Origin: Candidatus Endomicrobiellum guadaloupense
GTDB lineage: Bacteria > Elusimicrobiota > Endomicrobiia > Endomicrobiales > Endomicrobiaceae
Length of the DNA stretch: 45,306 bases
Assembly: GCA_031278895.1 (NCBI GenBank)
Contig: JAITJN010000018.1
Location: 1-45,306 of the forward strand
Reading direction: 5' to 3'
The notes under the pieces are model-generated. The model had not been told where the DNA came from, searched no databases, and saw nothing but the letters and a program-made list of their open reading frames with translations. Below are positions 26,110 through 36,599 of the stretch, piece after piece. Both the position numbers and the translations under genes were made by a program. Numbering within the stretch: the stretch's first letter is position 1; each line of letters opens with the position of its first letter.

Positions 26110-29100
26110 TCAATACAAATCAATAAATATCTCCGTCTCCACTCTCCTATTATTTGCTCTTCCTTCTTCAGTCTCATTACTATCTATCGGCCTACCCTTA
26201 CCATGCCCTATCTTCTCCATCTTCGCTGTGTCTATCCCATACTTTGCAAATACTTCATGTACTGCATGCGCTCTTGCCAATGATAACCTCATATTATACT
26301 CATCACTCCCTAGCGCATCCGTATGCCCCTCTATCCTTATCTTCTCAACCTTATATCTCTTCCCTATCCTATTTACTAACGCCTTTATCTCTTTCTCCGC
26401 TTCTGGCTTTATATCAGCCTTATCAAATTCAAACAATACTGCATTTATTTTAAAGTTTTCATTATCCGTTTTTCCCTCATCCGTCTTTGCCTTATCCGTC
26501 TTTACCTCTTCTGTCTTTACCTTATCTGTCTTTGCCTCATCCGTCTTTGCCTTATCCGTCTTTACCTCTTCTGTCTTTACCTTATCTGTCTTTACCTCAT
26601 CCGTCTTTGCCTTATCTGTCTTTACCTTATCTGTCTTTACCTCATCCGTCTTTGCCTCATCCGTCTTTGCCTCTTCTATATTCTTCTTCCCTGTCCACTT
26701 CCCAAACGAATACCTTACTCCTATAATACCACTTATATCTTTTACCATAGACGACCATCTTATATCTCCACTGCAATACGCCTCAAGCCCATCTAAAATA
26801 TAGTAACCAAACCCTATATCCCCTACAGCACTCACCACGTCTAACGTTACACTCCTCGATTGGAAATCTCTATTCCCAACTCCGTTCGGTAAACTATCTC
26901 CTCCACTAATTCTACTTGCTATCTCATTATTCCTTCCACTCAATATACAATCCAACCCCAAAGATCCATTCCACCTAAATTTATTTCCTTCACCTGTAAA
27001 TCCTACTCCTCCTCTCAGTCCTGCTCTTAAATAATTATTTGCTTTTACTTCTAAATTCCAAATATTTGCACCTTTTTCTGTAAACCCATTTGTATGTATT
27101 AACCCTACCCCTACTCCTGCATATGGCCTTAACTTTATTCTACCTAACACGCTCCTGCTTGCTACTCCTATTCTATACCCTGCCTCTACATCTAATATTG
27201 CACTAATACCACCAAACTCGCCTTTGGCTTTTGCCATATTCTCAAACCTTAAACATCTTGTTGTTTCATAATTGTCTAAACCAAATGACAATAATCCTTT
27301 TATGTCATACTTCTCTTCCACTATTCCACCATATACACCTATGCCATAACTGTTAATATCCGCCTTGTGTAAATCATCCCCCTGCCTTATAGAGCTCTTA
27401 TTTTGTTTTGCATAAACTCCAGCCGTAATGCTTGAGCTTGCCATCATGTCAAAACCTACTAGTACTCCTGTATTATTTACTTTAAATGTTTGTGGTGATT
27501 CTACATCTTTGTCTGTCTCTATTGCGCTTCCTTTTGCTTGCGCCCATATACCTTTTGTCGGCTCTTCGTATTCTATATAGTTATATATTCTGTTATATAC
27601 ATCTCTTTTTGATTCATCATATGCTCTGCTTACTATCACATTGCTTATAAAATATCCTGATAAATCAAATAGCGCTTCTTTTAATCCCTTTATATTCTTT
27701 CCTTCGCCTCCTACACCATATGATGTTATATCTTCAAGTCCGTCTCCCAATGCATTTTTAAGATCTTGTAATTTGTCCCCTAGTATTTTGGTTTCTCCAC
27801 TGTATCCTGATCCTGATGGATTATTTCCATATGCTTCATCATAATAATCTAATGTATTTGCTACTTCCATCTGATTAAAACACAGATTCAACTTATTCAA
27901 TGATCCAAATTTTGGATCATCATTCGCGTATCCTTTTGCCACCAATGCTATATACTCGCCCAAATAGTCGTACCTCATTTCATAACTCTTTGGTAACGTT
28001 CCAACTAATGTTACCGTACCAAAATTTCCTGTATACCCCTTTTTATACTTCATCAGCTTAAATGCTCTAAATTTAAATGTCTCTAAATCATCAAATGCAT
28101 CGTTTGTTGCTAACTTTAACCTGCTACTATCTGATAATTCTATTTGCCCATCTACATTTATTAAATCACTATCTCCTGTACTGTACTGCTCACCGTACTG
28201 CTCTACATTTGTTGTATCACACATCCTAATTATTCCTCCTCTCCCTAACGTTGGCTCTCCAAACAAATTCATGCTCAATGTCCCTTCTTGTAAAAAACTC
28301 GTCCCTACTTTTACTTCTTTCCCATGCCCTGCTGTTCCATCTATCACGAACTCTGCACTTGACTCTATCCTCATATCGCTATTTATTATGACTTCTGTTT
28401 CACCTATTATGTTAAACCGAGCGTTTCCATTTACGTTTAGATTCGGTATTACCGTCGCCCCTCTTCCTTCTGTTTCTAACGCAATGTCCACAAATCCATT
28501 AACATTTACTTTTCCTTCATTCCCGCTACTATTTATTGGATCAAGAATTCTAACTTGCCCTGCATCGCCTCCAAAATTTACTACTGATTGTCCTTCTAAC
28601 CATATTGAATTTGACAACCCGCCTGCCGTATTTTCTTGAAATATTTTTGTACTTACTGTGTCAACTATTATATCTAAAAATCCATCTTCTATATATATTG
28701 CTCCACCTTTTCCTGATGCACTATTTCTTTTTACCTGTAATGTCCCTGATAGCGTTACTGTTGCTCCACATATATGTATTGCTCCTCCGTTACATTCCCC
28801 GCTATGTCTTCTTCCTCTTTCAACATTCATTACAGTATCTTCTTGTTTTTGTTCTTCTTCTGACATACCATCATTTTCTGCAATGTTTCCAATAAATCCC
28901 GTGTCTTTTAAGTGAAGCCTTGCTCCTTGTGACACATATATCGCTCCTCCTCCTCCTTGTGTCGCTGTATTTGAGTCGAATGTTACGCCTATACAACGAA
29001 CTTTAGCGTTATCTGTTTCTATCATTAACGCTGCACCTTTATCTCCTTGTGCTCCTCTCACTTCTACTCTCAATAATTGAAAATCTACTTGATCATTTAT

Positions 29101-32100
29101 TTTAAAGACTGATACGCCTTCTTTTTCAGTATATGGATGCGCTACTATATAACTCTGCCCATTAAAGTCATCATGCCCTTCCACATAAAACGTCCCGGTA
29201 GACATGTACGCTAAATTTTCACCTATGTAGTACGTGTTAGTTGTACTATCAAACGAAAACTTTAATGCCCTGTCTCCCACCTTAGTATTCATTTCATTTA
29301 AGGAGTTTTCATCTGTCACTTTATAAGCCTCTACTACTACATCATGTGCATCTGTAGTACTAACTGTTATTGCATACTCATATGCTAATGTTGCTATTGC
29401 GCTATTAGAACCTTCTTCAAATAGTATATTCCCTCCTAATAAAGTTACCGTGTGCGTAGGAATATGGCCCCTCTCGCCTGTCAATTCTCCTACTGTCAAA
29501 ATACCAAGCTTTACTCTAGTTTCTGCTCCTGAACCACCTGATATTAATTTAGACCCTGTTGCCTCTGTAGATTGCATTACTATTGTTGTATTTAAATGCG
29601 TGTTGGAGGTCACAAGATTACTAAATGTTACTTGTCTTGTTCTCGGCTGGGTTGACAAATCAATATGATTTGAATCTTCAAAATCTATGTCAATTACAGA
29701 ATCTGTAAATGTATATGTCGCTCCGGTATAGTTGTCACTATCAACATCAACATAACATCCTTCAAATACTACTTCATTTCCTTCAGAGAATTCTCCATTT
29801 TCTAATTGTTCGGTTAATACATACCAAGTACCTAAGGACGCCCCGCTAAATTTCGCTTTTGCATTACCATTACTTCCAGTAAATCTTATATTACTAATTG
29901 TCGTGCTTAAATCATCATCAAGTCCTGATATATGTTCTAATACCCCTTCATCGCAAAGATCTACTTTATAATCTATTGTTCTGTTGTCAGCCCCATTCAT
30001 GGTTACTCGCAACGTACTGGTCTCTATTGTATGCGTTCCTTTAAACATATGATCACTATCAGAAACTATTGTCATTCCCGATCTTTGTATATATTCCCCA
30101 TAAAACAGTCCGCTAAAGATGTCACTAGTTCCTTCTATTCGCACTGTTCCAGCACCTGTTTTCTCTATACTTGTACCAACACTTCCTATCATCTCTCCTT
30201 CTTTTATAATTAACTCATTTCTCTCCGGTATCTCTATACTCACTTCTCCCCCATCCCATAATTGCAACTGACCTGGTATTATCCGGTTGCTCCAATTGAG
30301 AAAAGATAATTTCCCTCCGGTTATACTACTTACACTTGTTTCTCCGAAGTATCCACCATCGTTAACAAGTGTCATTCCATTTTTATGTAAAAACAGCCCT
30401 TCAAATGAACGCATATATCCCAGTACAAGGACTCCATCACCCGTTTTATCTATTATTCCATTTCCTACTAGCATGTCACTTCCTTCAAAATTTATACTTC
30501 CTTGTATTTCTAACTTTCCTGCTGTATCCAAATCTCCTGCTGTATTCCAGAGTTGTATTTGTGTTGTTGGTAGAACATCAACTTCACCCTTATCGGCAAA
30601 TATTAGAAGTCCATTAGATGTTACACTTGTTACTCCTGTAAAATAGTTTGTATCCCTAGCGGAAACTGCTCCTGAGAATAAATTGAATGTTCCTGAAAAA
30701 ACACTGTTGTCTCCTGATAACAATAAATGTACTCCACTAGTTGAATCTATTACTATTATTCCATCGCCTTCTGCCTCACTCTGTACTTGACCTGACAAGG
30801 ATACCTCTCTATTATTTTCTAATCTTAACTCTCCACCTTTCGACAACGTTATATTAGTACCATCACCAAAGTCTAGATTTCCCCATTCCAACACACTTCT
30901 TGTTATTATGCTTTTTCCAGAAAAATATTGCACACCCGTACTGCCGCCTCTTACGCTTGTAGTGCCATTACTTTGTTCAAATGTGCCAGCAAACTTAGAA
31001 TTATTCCCTGTCAATATTAAGAGGCCATTACCTTCTTCTTTTTTTATTGTACCATAACCAGTTAATTGTCCATTTATAGTTAACGTACTTGTTTTTATTT
31101 CAAGTGTACATTTTTCGTCTATATTTACAATGCTTTCTTCTACTAACTCTGTTCCTTGATTAAATATTAAATAACTTTCTTCAGATATTTTACTTTCTCC
31201 GCCAAAAAATGTCCCTGATACGGCTGTTGTTCCTTTATGTTGGATGTAATACCCGTTAAAAGCACTATTGTTACCACTTACTACTAATAGTGTCTCCCCT
31301 ATTTTTTGTATTTCCCCATTCCCTTCAAAAAGATTATTTACTTCCACTTGTCCTTCATTTTTTGTTATTAGTAATCTCCCAGAATTCTCCCACAACCCTA
31401 CTCGCGCTCCATTTGTAAACTCTCCGTTTGTCCCTATCTCCAACATGCCATGGGCTGTCACACTGGTTATCCCTCCAAAATATCTCGCAATGCCGCTATC
31501 ATTTGTTACATCTATCTTTCCGTCAGTTAGATGACATGTTCCTATAAATCCACTATTATCACCACTTAATGTCAATATACTATTGCTTGCTTTATTTAAA
31601 CGTGCTCTTTCATCTCCAATTAGTTGTCCATCAAATTGCAACTCCTCAGTAGTATTTATATTCATTTCTGCATTGTACAACATTATGCGTTGCGTCGCAT
31701 CAGTAAATGATGCGCCTTCTCCTAAATTTAATACTCCTCCTTCTGTTATACTGCTTGTTCCTCCAAAATATGTTCCTGTTACTCTTGTAGTTCCACCGGT
31801 TTGATGAAACAAACCATCAAAGTATTGATTAACACCACCTAACTCAAATAAACCGTTACCTGACTTTCTTATAGTTCCTTGATTAGTACCTGCAATGCCA
31901 CCGGTTATCACAACCCTTCCTGAGGTGCCCGTTATATTTACTGTTCCTGCTCCAAAATATATATCATGCCCTGCTTGGTCCCCACCATATGCTCCATTAT
32001 TCTCAAAAATTATATCGCCCTTACTAGTATCTAAATCAAGAGTTCCTCCATCAGCAACAAATATCGCCCCTCCACTACTAGTAGCGACGTTACTATTAAA

Positions 32101-33045
32101 ATTAGCTGCCATACAGTGAAAATCTATTGTTCCTGCTCCATATATTGCACCGCCATTTCTTGCTCCGTTTGATGTAAAGCCCACTTCTGTATTGTTTGTA
32201 AAGGAAATACTTGTACTGTGTTGCTTAAGGCTGATTGCGCCTCCTATTCCCAAATGTGACCCAACTCTTGTATAAACTCCTTCATCATCAAAGTCTGCCT
32301 GGTTTCTAAGAAATGTAACTCTAGAATCTCTAAACTCTATATGTGCGTCTTGCCAAGCCCAAAGAGCACCGCCTTCATCGCCAGATTTATTATCTTGAAA
32401 TAAAATAGTATCGCTATTAAATGTAAGTTTTGAACCGTTAAAGTATATGGCTGCTCCTGAAGCATTTCGACTTAAGTTATTTATAAATTCTATTGTAATG
32501 CCTGTAGAAGCATCTAAAGTGGCATGATTTAAACATAATCCTGCACAATCTCCACCATACTCAGCAAAACTTCCACCGCCGCCGGTAACAGTGTTGCTTA
32601 TAAAACTTACATCTCCATCAAAATAGACTTTTGAATTGTTTTCAAAAAAAAGCGCACTACCGTTTTTTGAGCCATCAAAGTCAGCAGTATTAAAAAAATT
32701 ACAAAATGTTATGTTACTTAAATGGATGGCGATGTGGGGACCACCATTGCCATAAATACCAACGCATCTTCCACATCCATCTAAAGTTGCGCCTCCGTCA
32801 GACGCTCCGATTATTGTTTTTGTATACAAACATTGTGTAGGTAAACCTGAATCTTGTTGTTGAAACTCAATAGTTGGAGTAGTAACTCGAATTGTTTCTC
32901 CGCTTGAGTAAGATTGAAGCTGATCTTTAAGTTCGTTAAAGCTGTTAACGTCTACAGCAAAAATTTTTGATGCGAAAACAAAAAAGAAAAACAAGATTAG
33001 AAGTACATTGAAAAAAGATACGAATAAATTCCTTACAAAGTACAT
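26110..33045 (-). CDS. Giant autotransporter with C-terminal OmpA-like domain
   Basis: A 2311-residue surface protein. Residues 1-30 are an extended, very hydrophobic signal peptide. The passenger is a beta-helix: GGA-[IL]-[YWF] motifs as in Chlamydia Pmp-type proteins at about residues 225-330 and 1365-1455, and between them about seven autotransporter-associated strand repeats (pattern L-x-LSG-x-N-S-x-F-x-G) near 398, 495, 588, 678, 775, 875 and 972. A beta-barrel covers about 1831-2117, starting KGIWAQAKG and ending GVRYSFGKW. Unlike classical autotransporters it continues: a Lys/Thr/Asp/Glu pentapeptide linker (2127-2196) and an OmpA-C domain (about 2197-2311) with LFEFDKADI, EGHTDALGSDEYN and NNRRVE. 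That domain should hold peptidoglycan from the periplasm. AGGAGG precedes the ATG. Likely an adhesin or surface coat; partner unknown. Confidence 0.92.
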   Translation of the reverse strand: MYFVRNLFVSFFNVLLILFFFFVFASKIFAVDVNSFNELKDQLQSYSSGETIRVTTPTIEFQQQDSGLPTQCLYTKTIIGASDGGATLDGCGRCVGIYGNGGPHIAIHLSNITFCNFFNTADFDGSKNGSALFFENNSKVYFDGDVSFISNTVTGGGGSFAEYGGDCAGLCLNHATLDASTGITIEFINNLSRNASGAAIYFNGSKLTFNSDTILFQDNKSGDEGGALWAWQDAHIEFRDSRVTFLRNQADFDDEGVYTRVGSHLGIGGAISLKQHSTSISFTNNTEVGFTSNGARNGGAIYGAGTIDFHCMAANFNSNVATSSGGAIFVADGGTLDLDTSKGDIIFENNGAYGGDQAGHDIYFGAGTVNITGTSGRVVITGGIAGTNQGTIRKSGNGLFELGGVNQYFDGLFHQTGGTTRVTGTYFGGTSSITEGGVLNLGEGASFTDATQRIMLYNAEMNINTTEELQFDGQLIGDERARLNKASNSILTLSGDNSGFIGTCHLTDGKIDVTNDSGIARYFGGITSVTAHGMLEIGTNGEFTNGARVGLWENSGRLLITKNEGQVEVNNLFEGNGEIQKIGETLLVVSGNNSAFNGYYIQHKGTTAVSGTFFGGESKISEESYLIFNQGTELVEESIVNIDEKCTLEIKTSTLTINGQLTGYGTIKKEEGNGLLILTGNNSKFAGTFEQSNGTTSVRGGSTGVQYFSGKSIITRSVLEWGNLDFGDGTNITLSKGGELRLENNREVSLSGQVQSEAEGDGIIVIDSTSGVHLLLSGDNSVFSGTFNLFSGAVSARDTNYFTGVTSVTSNGLLIFADKGEVDVLPTTQIQLWNTAGDLDTAGKLEIQGSINFEGSDMLVGNGIIDKTGDGVLVLGYMRSFEGLFLHKNGMTLVNDGGYFGETSVSSITGGKLSFLNWSNRIIPGQLQLWDGGEVSIEIPERNELIIKEGEMIGSVGTSIEKTGAGTVRIEGTSDIFSGLFYGEYIQRSGMTIVSDSDHMFKGTHTIETSTLRVTMNGADNRTIDYKVDLCDEGVLEHISGLDDDLSTTISNIRFTGSNGNAKAKFSGASLGTWYVLTEQLENGEFSEGNEVVFEGCYVDVDSDNYTGATYTFTDSVIDIDFEDSNHIDLSTQPRTRQVTFSNLVTSNTHLNTTIVMQSTEATGSKLISGGSGAETRVKLGILTVGELTGERGHIPTHTVTLLGGNILFEEGSNSAIATLAYEYAITVSTTDAHDVVVEAYKVTDENSLNEMNTKVGDRALKFSFDSTTNTYYIGENLAYMSTGTFYVEGHDDFNGQSYIVAHPYTEKEGVSVFKINDQVDFQLLRVEVRGAQGDKGAALMIETDNAKVRCIGVTFDSNTATQGGGGAIYVSQGARLHLKDTGFIGNIAENDGMSEEEQKQEDTVMNVERGRRHSGECNGGAIHICGATVTLSGTLQVKRNSASGKGGAIYIEDGFLDIIVDTVSTKIFQENTAGGLSNSIWLEGQSVVNFGGDAGQVRILDPINSSGNEGKVNVNGFVDIALETEGRGATVIPNLNVNGNARFNIIGETEVIINSDMRIESSAEFVIDGTAGHGKEVKVGTSFLQEGTLSMNLFGEPTLGRGGIIRMCDTTNVEQYGEQYSTGDSDLINVDGQIELSDSSRLKLATNDAFDDLETFKFRAFKLMKYKKGYTGNFGTVTLVGTLPKSYEMRYDYLGEYIALVAKGYANDDPKFGSLNKLNLCFNQMEVANTLDYYDEAYGNNPSGSGYSGETKILGDKLQDLKNALGDGLEDITSYGVGGEGKNIKGLKEALFDLSGYFISNVIVSRAYDESKRDVYNRIYNYIEYEEPTKGIWAQAKGSAIETDKDVESPQTFKVNNTGVLVGFDMMASSSITAGVYAKQNKSSIRQGDDLHKADINSYGIGVYGGIVEEKYDIKGLLSFGLDNYETTRCLRFENMAKAKGEFGGISAILDVEAGYRIGVASRSVLGRIKLRPYAGVGVGLIHTNGFTEKGANIWNLEVKANNYLRAGLRGGVGFTGEGNKFRWNGSLGLDCILSGRNNEIASRISGGDSLPNGVGNRDFQSRSVTLDVVSAVGDIGFGYYILDGLEAYCSGDIRWSSMVKDISGIIGVRYSFGKWTGKKNIEEAKTDEAKTDEVKTDKVKTDKAKTDEVKTDKVKTEEVKTDKAKTDEAKTDKVKTEEVKTDKAKTDEGKTDNENFKINAVLFEFDKADIKPEAEKEIKALVNRIGKRYKVEKIRIEGHTDALGSDEYNMRLSLARAHAVHEVFAKYGIDTAKMEKIGHGKGRPIDSNETEEGRANNRRVETEIFIDLY
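26458..26667 (-). repeat. 14 x 15-bp tandem repeat coding the KT[DE]-x-x linker
   Basis: Fourteen in-frame 15-bp units coding KTDEA, KTDEV, KTDKV, KTDKA, KTEEV and like variants. A 60-bp (four-unit) higher-order period is visible: 26473-26520 and 26533-26580 are almost identical. Unit length is a multiple of three, so gain or loss of units changes linker length without breaking the frame. It joins the barrel and the OmpA domain. Confidence 0.93.
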
Positions 33046-33770: not shown

Positions 33771-35831
33771 ATGAAAAAAGAAGAAATTTTTAGCTCAATT
33801 GTAAAAAGAGACGGAAGTAAAGAAGCGTTTAATCCTAAAAAGATTTGCGCAGCAATAGCAAAAGCTGGCAAAGCTACAGGAGAATTTGAACAAAATATTG
33901 CTCAAAAGCTTACGCTAAAAGTGTTATCTATACTTGAAAACGCTATAGAAGAAAGAAAGCCTTCGGTAGAGGAGATCCAAGATGTAGTTGAAGAAGTTTT
34001 ACTTTCGTCTTTGTACAAAAAAACTGCAAAAGCTTATATACTATACCGCGATCAACACAATAAAATTAGAGAAATAAGCTCTTCGTTTAATGTGGATTTG
34101 GTTGATCAATATTTAAAAAAGTTAGATTGGCAGGTAAACGAAAACAGCAATATGTCTTATTCATTACAAGGATTAAACAACTATGTTTCTTCTGAAATAA
34201 GCAAAATATATTGGCTAAATAAAATATATCCAGAAAATATAAGAAAGGCACACTGTGAAGGCGAACTACATATACATGATTTAGGGCTTTTAGGAGCGTA
34301 TTGTGTGGGCTGGGATTTACAAGACCTTTTAACAAGCGGATTTAAAGGGGTTTGTGGGAAATCTGAAGCTAAACCTGCAAAGCATTTTAGAACAGCGTTG
34401 GGACAGATTGTAAACTTCTTTTATACTCTGCAAGGAGAAAGTGCAGGAGCTCAAGCATTTTCTAACTTTGACAGCCTTCTTGCGCCTTTTATTTATTACG
34501 ATAAGCTTACATATAAAGAAGTAAAACAAGCTTTGCAGGAATTTCTTTTTAACATAAATGTGCCAACAAGAGTAGGTTTTCAAACACCTTTTACGAATCT
34601 AACATTAGATTTAACAGTAGCTCCTCATTATAAAAACGAACCTGTTATTATAGGTGGACAACGAGAAGACAAAAAGTATGGTGACTTCCAAAAAGAGATG
34701 GATATTTTAAATCAGGCTTTCTTAGAACTTATGCTTGAAGGCGACGCCAAGGGAAGAGTTTTTACATTCCCCATACCTACATATAATATAACTCGTGATT
34801 TTGATTGGCATAACCCTAATATAAAAGCTTTATGGGACATTACAGCAAAATATGGTATTCCCTATTTTGCAAATTTTATAAATTCCGATATGAAACCTGA
34901 AGACGCAAGAAGTATGTGTTGCCGTCTTAGAATAGATAATCGTGAATTACAAAAAAGAGGTGGAGGACTTTTTGGTGCTGCTCCTCTAACAGGCTCTATT
35001 GGCGTGGTAACTATAAACTTGCCAAGGCTTGGATATTTATCTAAAAATGAAGCAGACTTTATGAAAAGACTTAAAAATATAATGGATATAGCAAAGCAAA
35101 GCTTAGAAATAAAGAGAACTGTTTTGGAAAAATTAACTTCAAGCCATTTGTATCCTTATATGAGTTTTTATTTAAGAAGAGTAAAAGAACGATTTAATGA
35201 ATATTGGAAGAACCACTTCTCAACCATAGGAATAGTTGGACTAAATGAAGCATGCATGAATCTATTTGGCCAAAGAGTAGGAAGCCAAAAAGGAAAAGCA
35301 TTCGGTGAAAAAGTATTGGATTTTATGAGAGAAACCCTAATTGAGTATCAACAAGAAACCGGAAACAACTATAATCTTGAAGCAACTCCTGCAGAAGGGA
35401 CTTCATATAGGCTTGCAAAAATTGACGCAAAAAAATATCCTGATATTATTTCTGCAAGTCAAAAAGCAGATACACCTTTTTACACAAATTCAAGCCAACT
35501 GCCTGTAAATTATACAGACGATATTTTTGAAAATTTGAATTTGCAAGATTCTATGCAGTCCAAATACACAGGTGGAACAGTTATGCATATATTTATGGGT
35601 GAAAAAATTAAAGACACGCAAGCACTAAAAATTTTTATAAAAACTGTATGCGAAAATTATAGTTTACCTTATTTTTCAATAACACCAACTTTTAGTGTTT
35701 GCCCAAAGTGTGGATATCTTGAAGGCGAACAAGATGAATGCCCAAAATGTAAGAATGAAAAGTATGCGCAGATAGACCAACAAATAAAATCGCTTGAAAA
35801 TATGTTATATACAAGCGTTAACGCAAATTAA
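33771..35831 (+). CDS. nrdD: Anaerobic (class III) ribonucleotide reductase, large part lacking the glycyl-radical motif
   Basis: A 686-residue protein that makes deoxynucleotides without oxygen. An ATP-cone covers residues about 5-95 (IVKRDGSKEAFNPKKI). The catalytic barrel follows, with NINVPTRVGFQTPFTNLTLD and an active-site Cys in RSMCCRLRID. The C-terminal Zn site is CPKCGY with a later CPKC. Normally the chain continues to a RVVGY glycyl-radical loop, but this one ends with a 25-residue helix and TAA. That loop is in the next, separate 59-codon gene. Start ATG 33771 has GAGG upstream. Probably oxygen-sensitive and activated by the NrdG encoded downstream. Confidence 0.95.
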   Translation: MKKEEIFSSIVKRDGSKEAFNPKKICAAIAKAGKATGEFEQNIAQKLTLKVLSILENAIEERKPSVEEIQDVVEEVLLSSLYKKTAKAYILYRDQHNKIREISSSFNVDLVDQYLKKLDWQVNENSNMSYSLQGLNNYVSSEISKIYWLNKIYPENIRKAHCEGELHIHDLGLLGAYCVGWDLQDLLTSGFKGVCGKSEAKPAKHFRTALGQIVNFFYTLQGESAGAQAFSNFDSLLAPFIYYDKLTYKEVKQALQEFLFNINVPTRVGFQTPFTNLTLDLTVAPHYKNEPVIIGGQREDKKYGDFQKEMDILNQAFLELMLEGDAKGRVFTFPIPTYNITRDFDWHNPNIKALWDITAKYGIPYFANFINSDMKPEDARSMCCRLRIDNRELQKRGGGLFGAAPLTGSIGVVTINLPRLGYLSKNEADFMKRLKNIMDIAKQSLEIKRTVLEKLTSSHLYPYMSFYLRRVKERFNEYWKNHFSTIGIVGLNEACMNLFGQRVGSQKGKAFGEKVLDFMRETLIEYQQETGNNYNLEATPAEGTSYRLAKIDAKKYPDIISASQKADTPFYTNSSQLPVNYTDDIFENLNLQDSMQSKYTGGTVMHIFMGEKIKDTQALKIFIKTVCENYSLPYFSITPTFSVCPKCGYLEGEQDECPKCKNEKYAQIDQQIKSLENMLYTSVNAN

Positions 35832-35846
35832 TAAGGGGGACCAAAA

Positions 35847-36026
35847 ATGACTGTTAATGAAATTCAAGAAAAAATCAATGAATTAAAAGCACAAAGAGAC
35901 AGTGTTGAAGGAACAAAATGCGAAGTTTACTCAAGAGTTGTAGGTTATTTGAGACCTGTTTCTCTATGGAATGAAGGAAAGAGAGAAGAATTTAAAATAC
36001 GTAAGACATATTGTCCTTGTGAATAA
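35847..36026 (+). CDS. Separate glycyl-radical subunit of NrdD
   Basis: A 59-residue protein between nrdD and nrdG. After a charged helix of about 22 residues it has SRVVGYLRPVSLWNEGKREEF, the glycyl-radical loop that normally ends NrdD; Gly33 should carry the radical. It ends KTYCPCE. ATG 35847 is preceded by AAGGGGGA, a proper ribosome site, and its TAA directly adjoins the nrdG ATG at 36027. This suggests an evolved split into two chains, not an accidental stop. The helix may dock on the helix that ends the large part. An alternative is a spare-part protein in the manner of GrcA for pyruvate formate-lyase, but here the large chain has no such loop of its own. Confidence 0.9.
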   Translation: MTVNEIQEKINELKAQRDSVEGTKCEVYSRVVGYLRPVSLWNEGKREEFKIRKTYCPCE

Positions 36027-36599
36027 ATGAAAATTGCAGGATTACAAAAATTATCATTGATAGACTATCCTGGGGTGCCTGCAGCTGTTATTTTTACTCA
36101 AGGCTGTAATATGACATGTCCTTATTGTCATAACCCCCAGTTAGTATATCCGGATTTATTTGAAACAACTATAAGTGATGAAGATATTTTTAGTTTTTTG
36201 AAAAAAAGACAGAAACTTCTTAAAGGTGTTGTTATAACAGGTGGGGAACCTACTCTTCAAAAAGATTTAATCGAATTCATAAAAAAAATAAAGAACTTAA
36301 AGTTCTCTATAAAGCTTGATACTAACGGAGCAGTCCCCAGAGTTTTAAAAGATTTAATTGATAAAAATCTTTTAGATTTTATTGCTATGGATATAAAATC
36401 GCCACAGGCCAAATACAATCTATTTTTTAAAGGCGATTTGGAAATGATAAAGCAATCTATAAATATAATTCAATCTTCAGGAATTGATCATATTTTTAGA
36501 ACTACATACGATACATCTATTCTAAGTGAATCAGACTTAAAGTCTATTAAAACATTAGCAACAACTTCAACACATATAGTGCAACAATGTAGGAAATAA
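36027..36599 (+). CDS. nrdG: Anaerobic ribonucleotide reductase activating protein (radical SAM)
   Basis: A 190-residue radical SAM enzyme that makes the glycyl radical of NrdD. The cluster motif C-x3-C-x2-C is CNMTCPYC near residue 30, followed by GGEPTLQ for SAM binding. It starts MKIAGLQKLSLIDYPG, typical of the NrdG2 branch. Homologs often continue 20-40 residues past the LQQFR-like motif, seen here as IVQQCRK just before the stop, so the C-terminus may be slightly shortened. Its ATG abuts the stop of the glycyl-radical gene. Confidence 0.93.
   Translation: MKIAGLQKLSLIDYPGVPAAVIFTQGCNMTCPYCHNPQLVYPDLFETTISDEDIFSFLKKRQKLLKGVVITGGEPTLQKDLIEFIKKIKNLKFSIKLDTNGAVPRVLKDLIDKNLLDFIAMDIKSPQAKYNLFFKGDLEMIKQSINIIQSSGIDHIFRTTYDTSILSESDLKSIKTLATTSTHIVQQCRK

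Follow-up and report, generated by a model that had tools for sequence, protein, structure and literature searches.

Gene organization of the nrdD locus

We analyzed a 45,306-nucleotide stretch of Candidatus Endomicrobiellum guadaloupense, phylum Elusimicrobiota (contig JAITJN010000018.1; hereafter the window), in which the large NrdD chain of a class III ribonucleotide reductase (RNR), here called D, ends without a glycyl radical loop, and the next gene encodes a 59-residue protein, S, that carries this loop. Together, D and S very probably constitute a class III RNR made of two chains. An earlier note, made from the letters of the window, had described NrdD as ending after its Zn site and a helix without the RVVGY loop, and the next gene, with its own ribosome site and abutting nrdG, as the supplier of that loop; sequence inspection and profile searches bore out both statements. 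The locus contains the following features.

33771..35831, + strand: nrdD, large chain D, 686 amino acids, with ATP-cone, barrel, four-Cys site and tail helix and without glycyl loop (open reading frame and profile matches)
33795..34061, + strand: ATP-cone domain, D residues 9–97 (PF03477, E 3.1e-22)
35700..35750, + strand: putative Zn site C644, C647, C657 and C660, retained on D (sequence and alignment)
35751..35828, + strand: C-terminal tail of D, heptad at 665, 668, 672, 675 and 679, absent from the fused relatives seen; proposed docking helix (71 loci)
35829..35846, + strand: spacer with tandem stops TAA TAA, the ribosome-site-like AAGGGGGA at 35833–35840, then the ATG of S (sequence)
35847..36026, + strand: small chain S, 59 amino acids, with glycyl radical loop (PF13597 positions 531–562 of 562, E 4.2e-10)
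35856..35909, + strand: N-terminal heptad stretch of S, I6, I10, L13 and V20; proposed partner of the D tail helix (72 loci)
35934..35957, + strand: glycyl loop RVVGYLRP, Gly33 codon at 35943–35945 (profile alignment to Thermotoga maritima NrdD)
36027..36599, + strand: nrdG, activase of NrdG2 type, radical S-adenosylmethionine (SAM) protein, abutting the S gene (TIGR02495, PF04055)

The NRDD profile PF13597 matched residues 124–664 of D over profile positions 1–531 of 562 (E 1.5e-189), with the profile end missing, and PRK08270 (NF006126) matched D with 1045 bits against a cut-off of 548. S covered the part of PF13597 that D misses, and NRDD was its sole Pfam match at E up to 1. Since the NRDD profile is divided in this way between the two proteins, S corresponds to the missing end of D. 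A profile of 15 S proteins matched T. maritima NrdD (E 0.0019) and placed Gly33, invariant in all 15, on Gly621, the residue marked in a figure legend of PMC4493059 that compares glycyl radical enzymes. Besides the four cysteines of the putative Zn site, D contains the motif SMCCR; because this fits the MCCR variant that section 13 of PMC4493059 gives for the subgroup NrdDh4, D is probably a member of that subgroup. NrdG scored 209 bits against TIGR02495 (NrdG2; cut-off 131). The window therefore holds the NRDD catalytic domain with an ATP-cone, the four cysteines, a glycyl loop within the gene cluster and a neighboring radical-SAM NrdG, as a class III RNR should; the loop is not at the C-terminus of the catalytic chain, and because it lies on a separate chain we regard the system as a variant of class III NrdD.

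At this locus S lies in the reading frame of D. Profile searches of the window genome, which is 94% complete, detected one NrdD and one S, no second S, and no match to PF02867, the large subunit of class I and II RNR. Given the latter result, the split class III enzyme is the sole RNR seen in this genome.

Conservation of the split within the phylum

A search for D in 198 genomes of the phylum gave matches in 137, and loci were taken for strong matches. We counted 101 loci, one per genome and including the window, in which D matched with E < 1e-100 and had an open reading frame above 1300 nt; the count omits G172 and G188, whose D is partial, G169, whose D is broken, and 33 genomes in which all matches were weaker (including L106–L111). 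Among these 101 loci, 77 were split, 23 were fused and one (G008) had no S nearby, its S being located on a different contig. In G008 (L372), a gene for cobalamin-independent methionine synthase lies between S and NrdG.

Across the 77 split loci, S occupied frames 0, 1 and 2 relative to D in 31, 22 and 24 cases, the gap between D and S ranged from −4 to 284 nt with an ATGA overlap in some relatives, and D ended in TAA (48), TAG (17) or TGA (12). In all 77, the start of S picked by the script was an ATG preceded by 3 or more bases resembling a ribosome site, a combination that the script favors. For 12 loci (11 relatives and the window; 66 pairs), the mean nonsynonymous difference (pN) of S was 0.096 and the synonymous one (pS) 0.610, compared with pN 0.205 and pS 0.150 in a shifted-frame control on the same loci; S is under purifying selection. 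The E-values, the conservation over 77 loci and the ratio of pN to pS exclude S as a chance open reading frame. Both genes are conserved over the split loci, in agreement with the earlier view that both pieces are intact.

The same genus contains one fused nrdD, in G052, nested inside split relatives (support 100, starred). Owing to this position, the G052 gene looks like a re-fusion. With 77 of 101 loci split, the concern that only the window genome is split while close relatives are fused does not apply. Also in this genus, G169 has an NrdD broken across several frames, where S was not found, and at least 19 genomes gave no NrdD match. A second split form, with an ATGA overlap, was found in 5 genomes of another family of the phylum (L100–L104).

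Predicted heptad helices flanking the break

In the lineage of the window, the D tail that follows the four-Cys site was hydrophobic at positions 4, 7, 11, 14 and 18 with frequencies of 0.85, 1.00, 1.00, 1.00 and 0.96 (71 loci). The start of S was likewise hydrophobic at −19, −15, −12, −8 and −5 from its first cysteine (1.00, 1.00, 1.00, 0.54 and 0.86; 72 loci). In fused relatives, only 3 residues separate the four-Cys site from the loop in 17 of 23 cases; in the remaining 6 the pattern matched from the first Cys pair, leaving 3–4 residues. The fused G052 gene is without both helices. The simplest reading is that a two-helix clamp would stand in for the lost peptide bond between D and S.

Phylogenetic distribution of split and fused forms

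A FastTree phylogeny of 177 D rows, with the alignment cut before the four-Cys site, required five state changes, as did a quick IQ-TREE of 56 rows. In the FastTree, the split clade of the window comprised 74 rows (support 98, starred) and contained a single fused row, G052; both trees drew this clade inside fused relatives. The second form, L100–L104, was drawn among mostly pseudomonadotan rows in both trees. A topology test rejected all split rows as one clade (p 2.9e-78) in a set that included fused rows nested in split clades. Without these (47 rows: 36 split, 11 fused), one split clade was not rejected (p 0.53), and the constrained tree was slightly better. We accordingly discarded p 2.9e-78 as evidence for two independent split origins, because the nested fused rows (G052, Actinomycetota, Acidiphilium) alone force that result. 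The state has changed between split and fused more than once, chiefly on account of G052; for the deeper changes, the trees are compatible with single as well as repeated splitting and with either direction of change.

Outside the phylum, a scan of genome contigs with the S alignment gave at least 576 relatives. Among the best 80, 69 were split with D in the locus, 9 had S without D in the examined stretch and 2 were fused; by record titles they belong to Pseudomonadota, Campylobacterota, Omnitrophota, Actinomycetota, Verrucomicrobiota and Gracilibacteria. Matches occurred in 61 of 150 genomes of Campylobacterota, and 59 of these 61 had short frames only (48–129 amino acids), so that the two long frames represent at most two fused genes; an open frame of 600–900 amino acids is by itself no proof of fusion, given that D and S of G207 share a frame with a stop between them. 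The split in nearly all matching genomes of Campylobacterota sampled, and in some of Pseudomonadota, is of the second form. It is a minority trait in Pseudomonadota, where 16 of 299 genomes matched and 10 of the 16 had a clear short-frame S. In Actinomycetota 7 of 198 genomes matched, one of them with a short frame.

Matches were also found in 29 plasmid records, in many of which the small gene is annotated nrdD. On pHG1 of Cupriavidus necator H16, for instance, a small nrdD gene of 66 codons lies between a 676-residue NrdD and NrdG. The split arrangement is therefore already present in databases. A 1999 study reportedly found that nrdDG on pHG1 is needed for anaerobic growth. Fused forms among plasmid and other records came from Actinomyces, Acidiphilium and Geoalkalibacter. 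Two Allochromatium plasmids (L116, L121) carry annotated small nrdD genes with no NrdD or NrdG within 2.5–3 kb on either side.

S apart from D in bacterial genomes

We searched 16 genomes with NRDD, about half of them picked because S lacked D in the locus. One D occurred with three S in G203 and G206 and with two S in G204 and G211; G198 and G200 had extra S besides a further NrdD; D and S were unlinked in G199 and G202; G201 and G205 had S only; and the remaining 6 had one D beside one S. Within the phylum of the window, 16 genomes had two or three clear S per one split D (G104 also with a fused NrdD). These extra S were located away from D, and six scanned neighbors were five ordinary genes and one integrase. 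In G292, a single contig of 1.85 Mb carries one D and three S, and the S closest to D is about 95 kb away. Other extra S adjoin phage genes, namely endolysin and terminase (L265), a tail assembly chaperone (L262), a tail fiber (L259) and integrases (L273, L364). Extra S accompanied 18 of 78 split D versus 0 of 23 fused D (Fisher p 0.011). We did not retain this p value as independent evidence, since G026 and G138 are weak cases and the remaining 16 of the 18 all fall in one family group.

S in viral records

From IMG/VR, two scans retrieved 295 and 94 relatives, of which 80 each were kept and classified by hidden Markov model and motif. In the first 80, 79 had S alone (22 with less than 2.2 kb of upstream sequence) and 1 was split. 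The second 80 comprised 59 with S alone (7 with short upstream sequence), 2 fused loci, 1 split locus and 18 that lacked the motif, two of which had D. When 57 of these viral records, which may be fragments, were searched whole with NRDD, 53 had S without D, 2 had D and S, 1 was fused and 1 gave no match; among the 53, G861 had an extra weak match at profile positions 503–529, and the match of G911 began at 496 with two stops inside. Ten flanking proteins, taken from seven of the viral loci, were compared with PHROGs, and nine matched, including reverse transcriptase, HNH endonuclease, tail fiber, endolysin and integrase.

Residues N42, K45, E48 and R52, which the search pattern left free to vary, were invariant in all sets among loci holding the whole core (operonic, 57/74; fused, 5/23; extra S, 11/19 and 12/12; second form, 72/80; viral, 60/80 and 55/80).

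The family phrog_4132, which is listed as of unknown function, was matched by the S of C. necator and by all four of the viral S that were compared with it. Positions of about 108–160 of its 179 match the NrdD glycyl loop; the N-terminal part is unexplained. In the second viral set (L377–L456), 25 of 80 loci had a KCGxKCEVYSR-like start that keeps half of a Cys pair, as if cut from the fused NrdD of other hosts. Protein searches of an isolated-phage collection returned no stand-alone S. The loop was in one frame with NrdD in Oceanotoga phage UFV02 and in MT835493, the ANMV-1 match falls under an annotated NrdD, and matches in Lak phages were weak.

A two-chain model and its alternatives

Building on the observed gene anatomy, conservation, selection and separate translation starts, we propose with high confidence that D and S form one class III RNR; binding of D to S, pairing of the helices, activation in the complex and catalysis are predicted from the sequences. 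D would contribute nucleotide binding, the catalytic barrel, the finger-loop cysteines and the four-Cys site, and S would carry the radical glycine. In the lineage of the window, the N-terminal heptad helix of S would pair with its counterpart in the D tail, and this docking would place the RVVGY loop in the barrel as in the fused enzyme. NrdG, encoded in the same gene cluster, would then generate the glycyl radical on Gly33 of S, from which the radical would move to a finger-loop cysteine of D.

Several observations weigh against this model or its generality. Position 13 of the D tail, off the strict heptad, is hydrophobic too in 0.73 of the 71 loci. The heptad pair is absent from the proteobacterial and campylobacterial split form, so docking there must differ. 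S and D are unlinked in some genomes, and their joint dosage is therefore not assured. Furthermore, the rows from outside the phylum were gathered by an S query and are biased to split forms.

Alternatively, S might bind D or NrdG as a regulator or decoy and not be the catalytic radical subunit, and stand-alone and viral S could indeed be inhibitors. This is improbable: D has no loop of its own, yet belongs to the only RNR seen in the window genome, and the four residues invariant in operonic S are kept at 100% in stand-alone and viral S holding the whole core.

It is still less probable that stop-codon readthrough or a programmed frameshift yields one fused product. The shared frame of D and S in the window and the ATGA overlap in some relatives would suit such a mechanism. 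However, S is spread over all three frames at variable gaps, D ends in any of three stop codons, tandem TAA stops separate the genes in the window, and D and S lie on different contigs in G008 and about 95 kb apart in G292. The same spacers, frames and two stops speak against the concern in the earlier note that resequencing would join the frames.

That a fused nrdD was cut by a frameshift, a false stop or an assembly error has a negligible probability, despite the fused copy in G052 and the visibly broken NrdD of G169, because the 77 split loci from independent genomes have heptads, start codons and ribosome-site-like stretches, S is under strong purifying selection, and the arrangement recurs in other phyla. 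Readthrough, frameshifting and a pseudogene were thus rejected by frames, gaps and selection, and a pseudogene or assembly error also by conservation over independent genomes.

Another gene of the window

Elsewhere in the window, positions 26110–33045 on the − strand encode a 2311-residue protein. A domain scan of its C-terminal 1000 residues revealed a match to Chlamydia-type PMP repeats, an autotransporter beta-domain, KTDE-type repeats and a C-terminal OmpA domain.

Comparison with known systems and significance

According to passages in PMC4520616 and PMC9531940, class III RNR is a homodimer whose catalytic chain bears the radical glycine in its C-terminal domain. Fused NrdD, such as that of T. 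maritima (4coi), shares with the window system the barrel, the four-Cys site, the glycyl loop and the NrdG activase, and the ATP-cone aligns in 8p23 and 9d3x; it differs in that the window loop and C-terminal tail form a separate gene and the break is flanked by heptad helices. A parallel in gene structure is the class II NrdJa/NrdJb of Pseudomonas aeruginosa, an RNR catalytic chain in two genes of one operon that, as PMC4520616 describes, are both needed, but this is a B12-class enzyme, and NrdJb has 229 amino acids and is not a glycyl loop. In a 2015 statement, the same article gave split NrdJ as the only non-viral split RNR found. Phage nrdD genes may also be interrupted (introns in T-even phages, phiAS4, Lactococcus phage 949; examples from PMC3653736). 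Those are interrupted or fragmented whole genes; in the present system the cell itself employs two genes, and the viral records have S but no D. In the literature searched, from which subscription papers were mostly absent, no cellular class III RNR was described as split; the 1999 work on C. necator nrdDG and a 2014 one on N. bacilliformis NrdD might mention the small gene.

The occurrence of S alone, as extra copies, unlinked to D, beside phage genes and in viral records, led us to consider S as an exchangeable radical subunit. According to an account in PMC3019208, the glycyl radical is the site at which oxygen cuts class III RNR; the loss would be confined to S when S is a separate chain. 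A loop on its own chain also fits an already mobile element, because the Prevotella copri glycyl radical domain is described in PMC11226230 as ordered in the presence of ATP but not visible with dATP. YfiD (GrcA) and T4 Y06I, presented in PMC8683613 as the only validated spare parts, with parts for other enzymes held possible, resemble S as small stand-alone glycyl-loop proteins, also phage-borne. They restore an oxygen-cleaved enzyme, as S may do, and extra and viral S would fit such a repair model. The enzyme they serve is pyruvate formate-lyase, whereas S matches NRDD only and not the pyruvate formate-lyase-type family; and YfiD is encoded apart from its enzyme, as S is in relatives, whereas in the window S adjoins D. 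We give even chances to S being an exchangeable radical cartridge. In that case, oxygen would destroy only the 59-residue chain and fresh S would restore the 686-residue chain; some bacteria would keep spare S, phages would carry S alone so that the host RNR keeps making DNA precursors during infection, and viral S of the KCGxKCEVYSR type may serve hosts with fused NrdD.

With the radical on its own small subunit, access of the loop to NrdG becomes directly testable, as S can be added, labeled or swapped. RNR surveys that call NrdD by its catalytic domain miss S, and a viral record that matches NRDD may hold S alone. For part of phrog_4132, the stand-alone and viral S suggest a role. These S proteins are candidates for the spare parts that the discussion in PMC8683613 suggested for other glycyl radical enzymes, and, if the cartridge reading is true, they would represent, to our knowledge, the first spare-part system for a ribonucleotide reductase.

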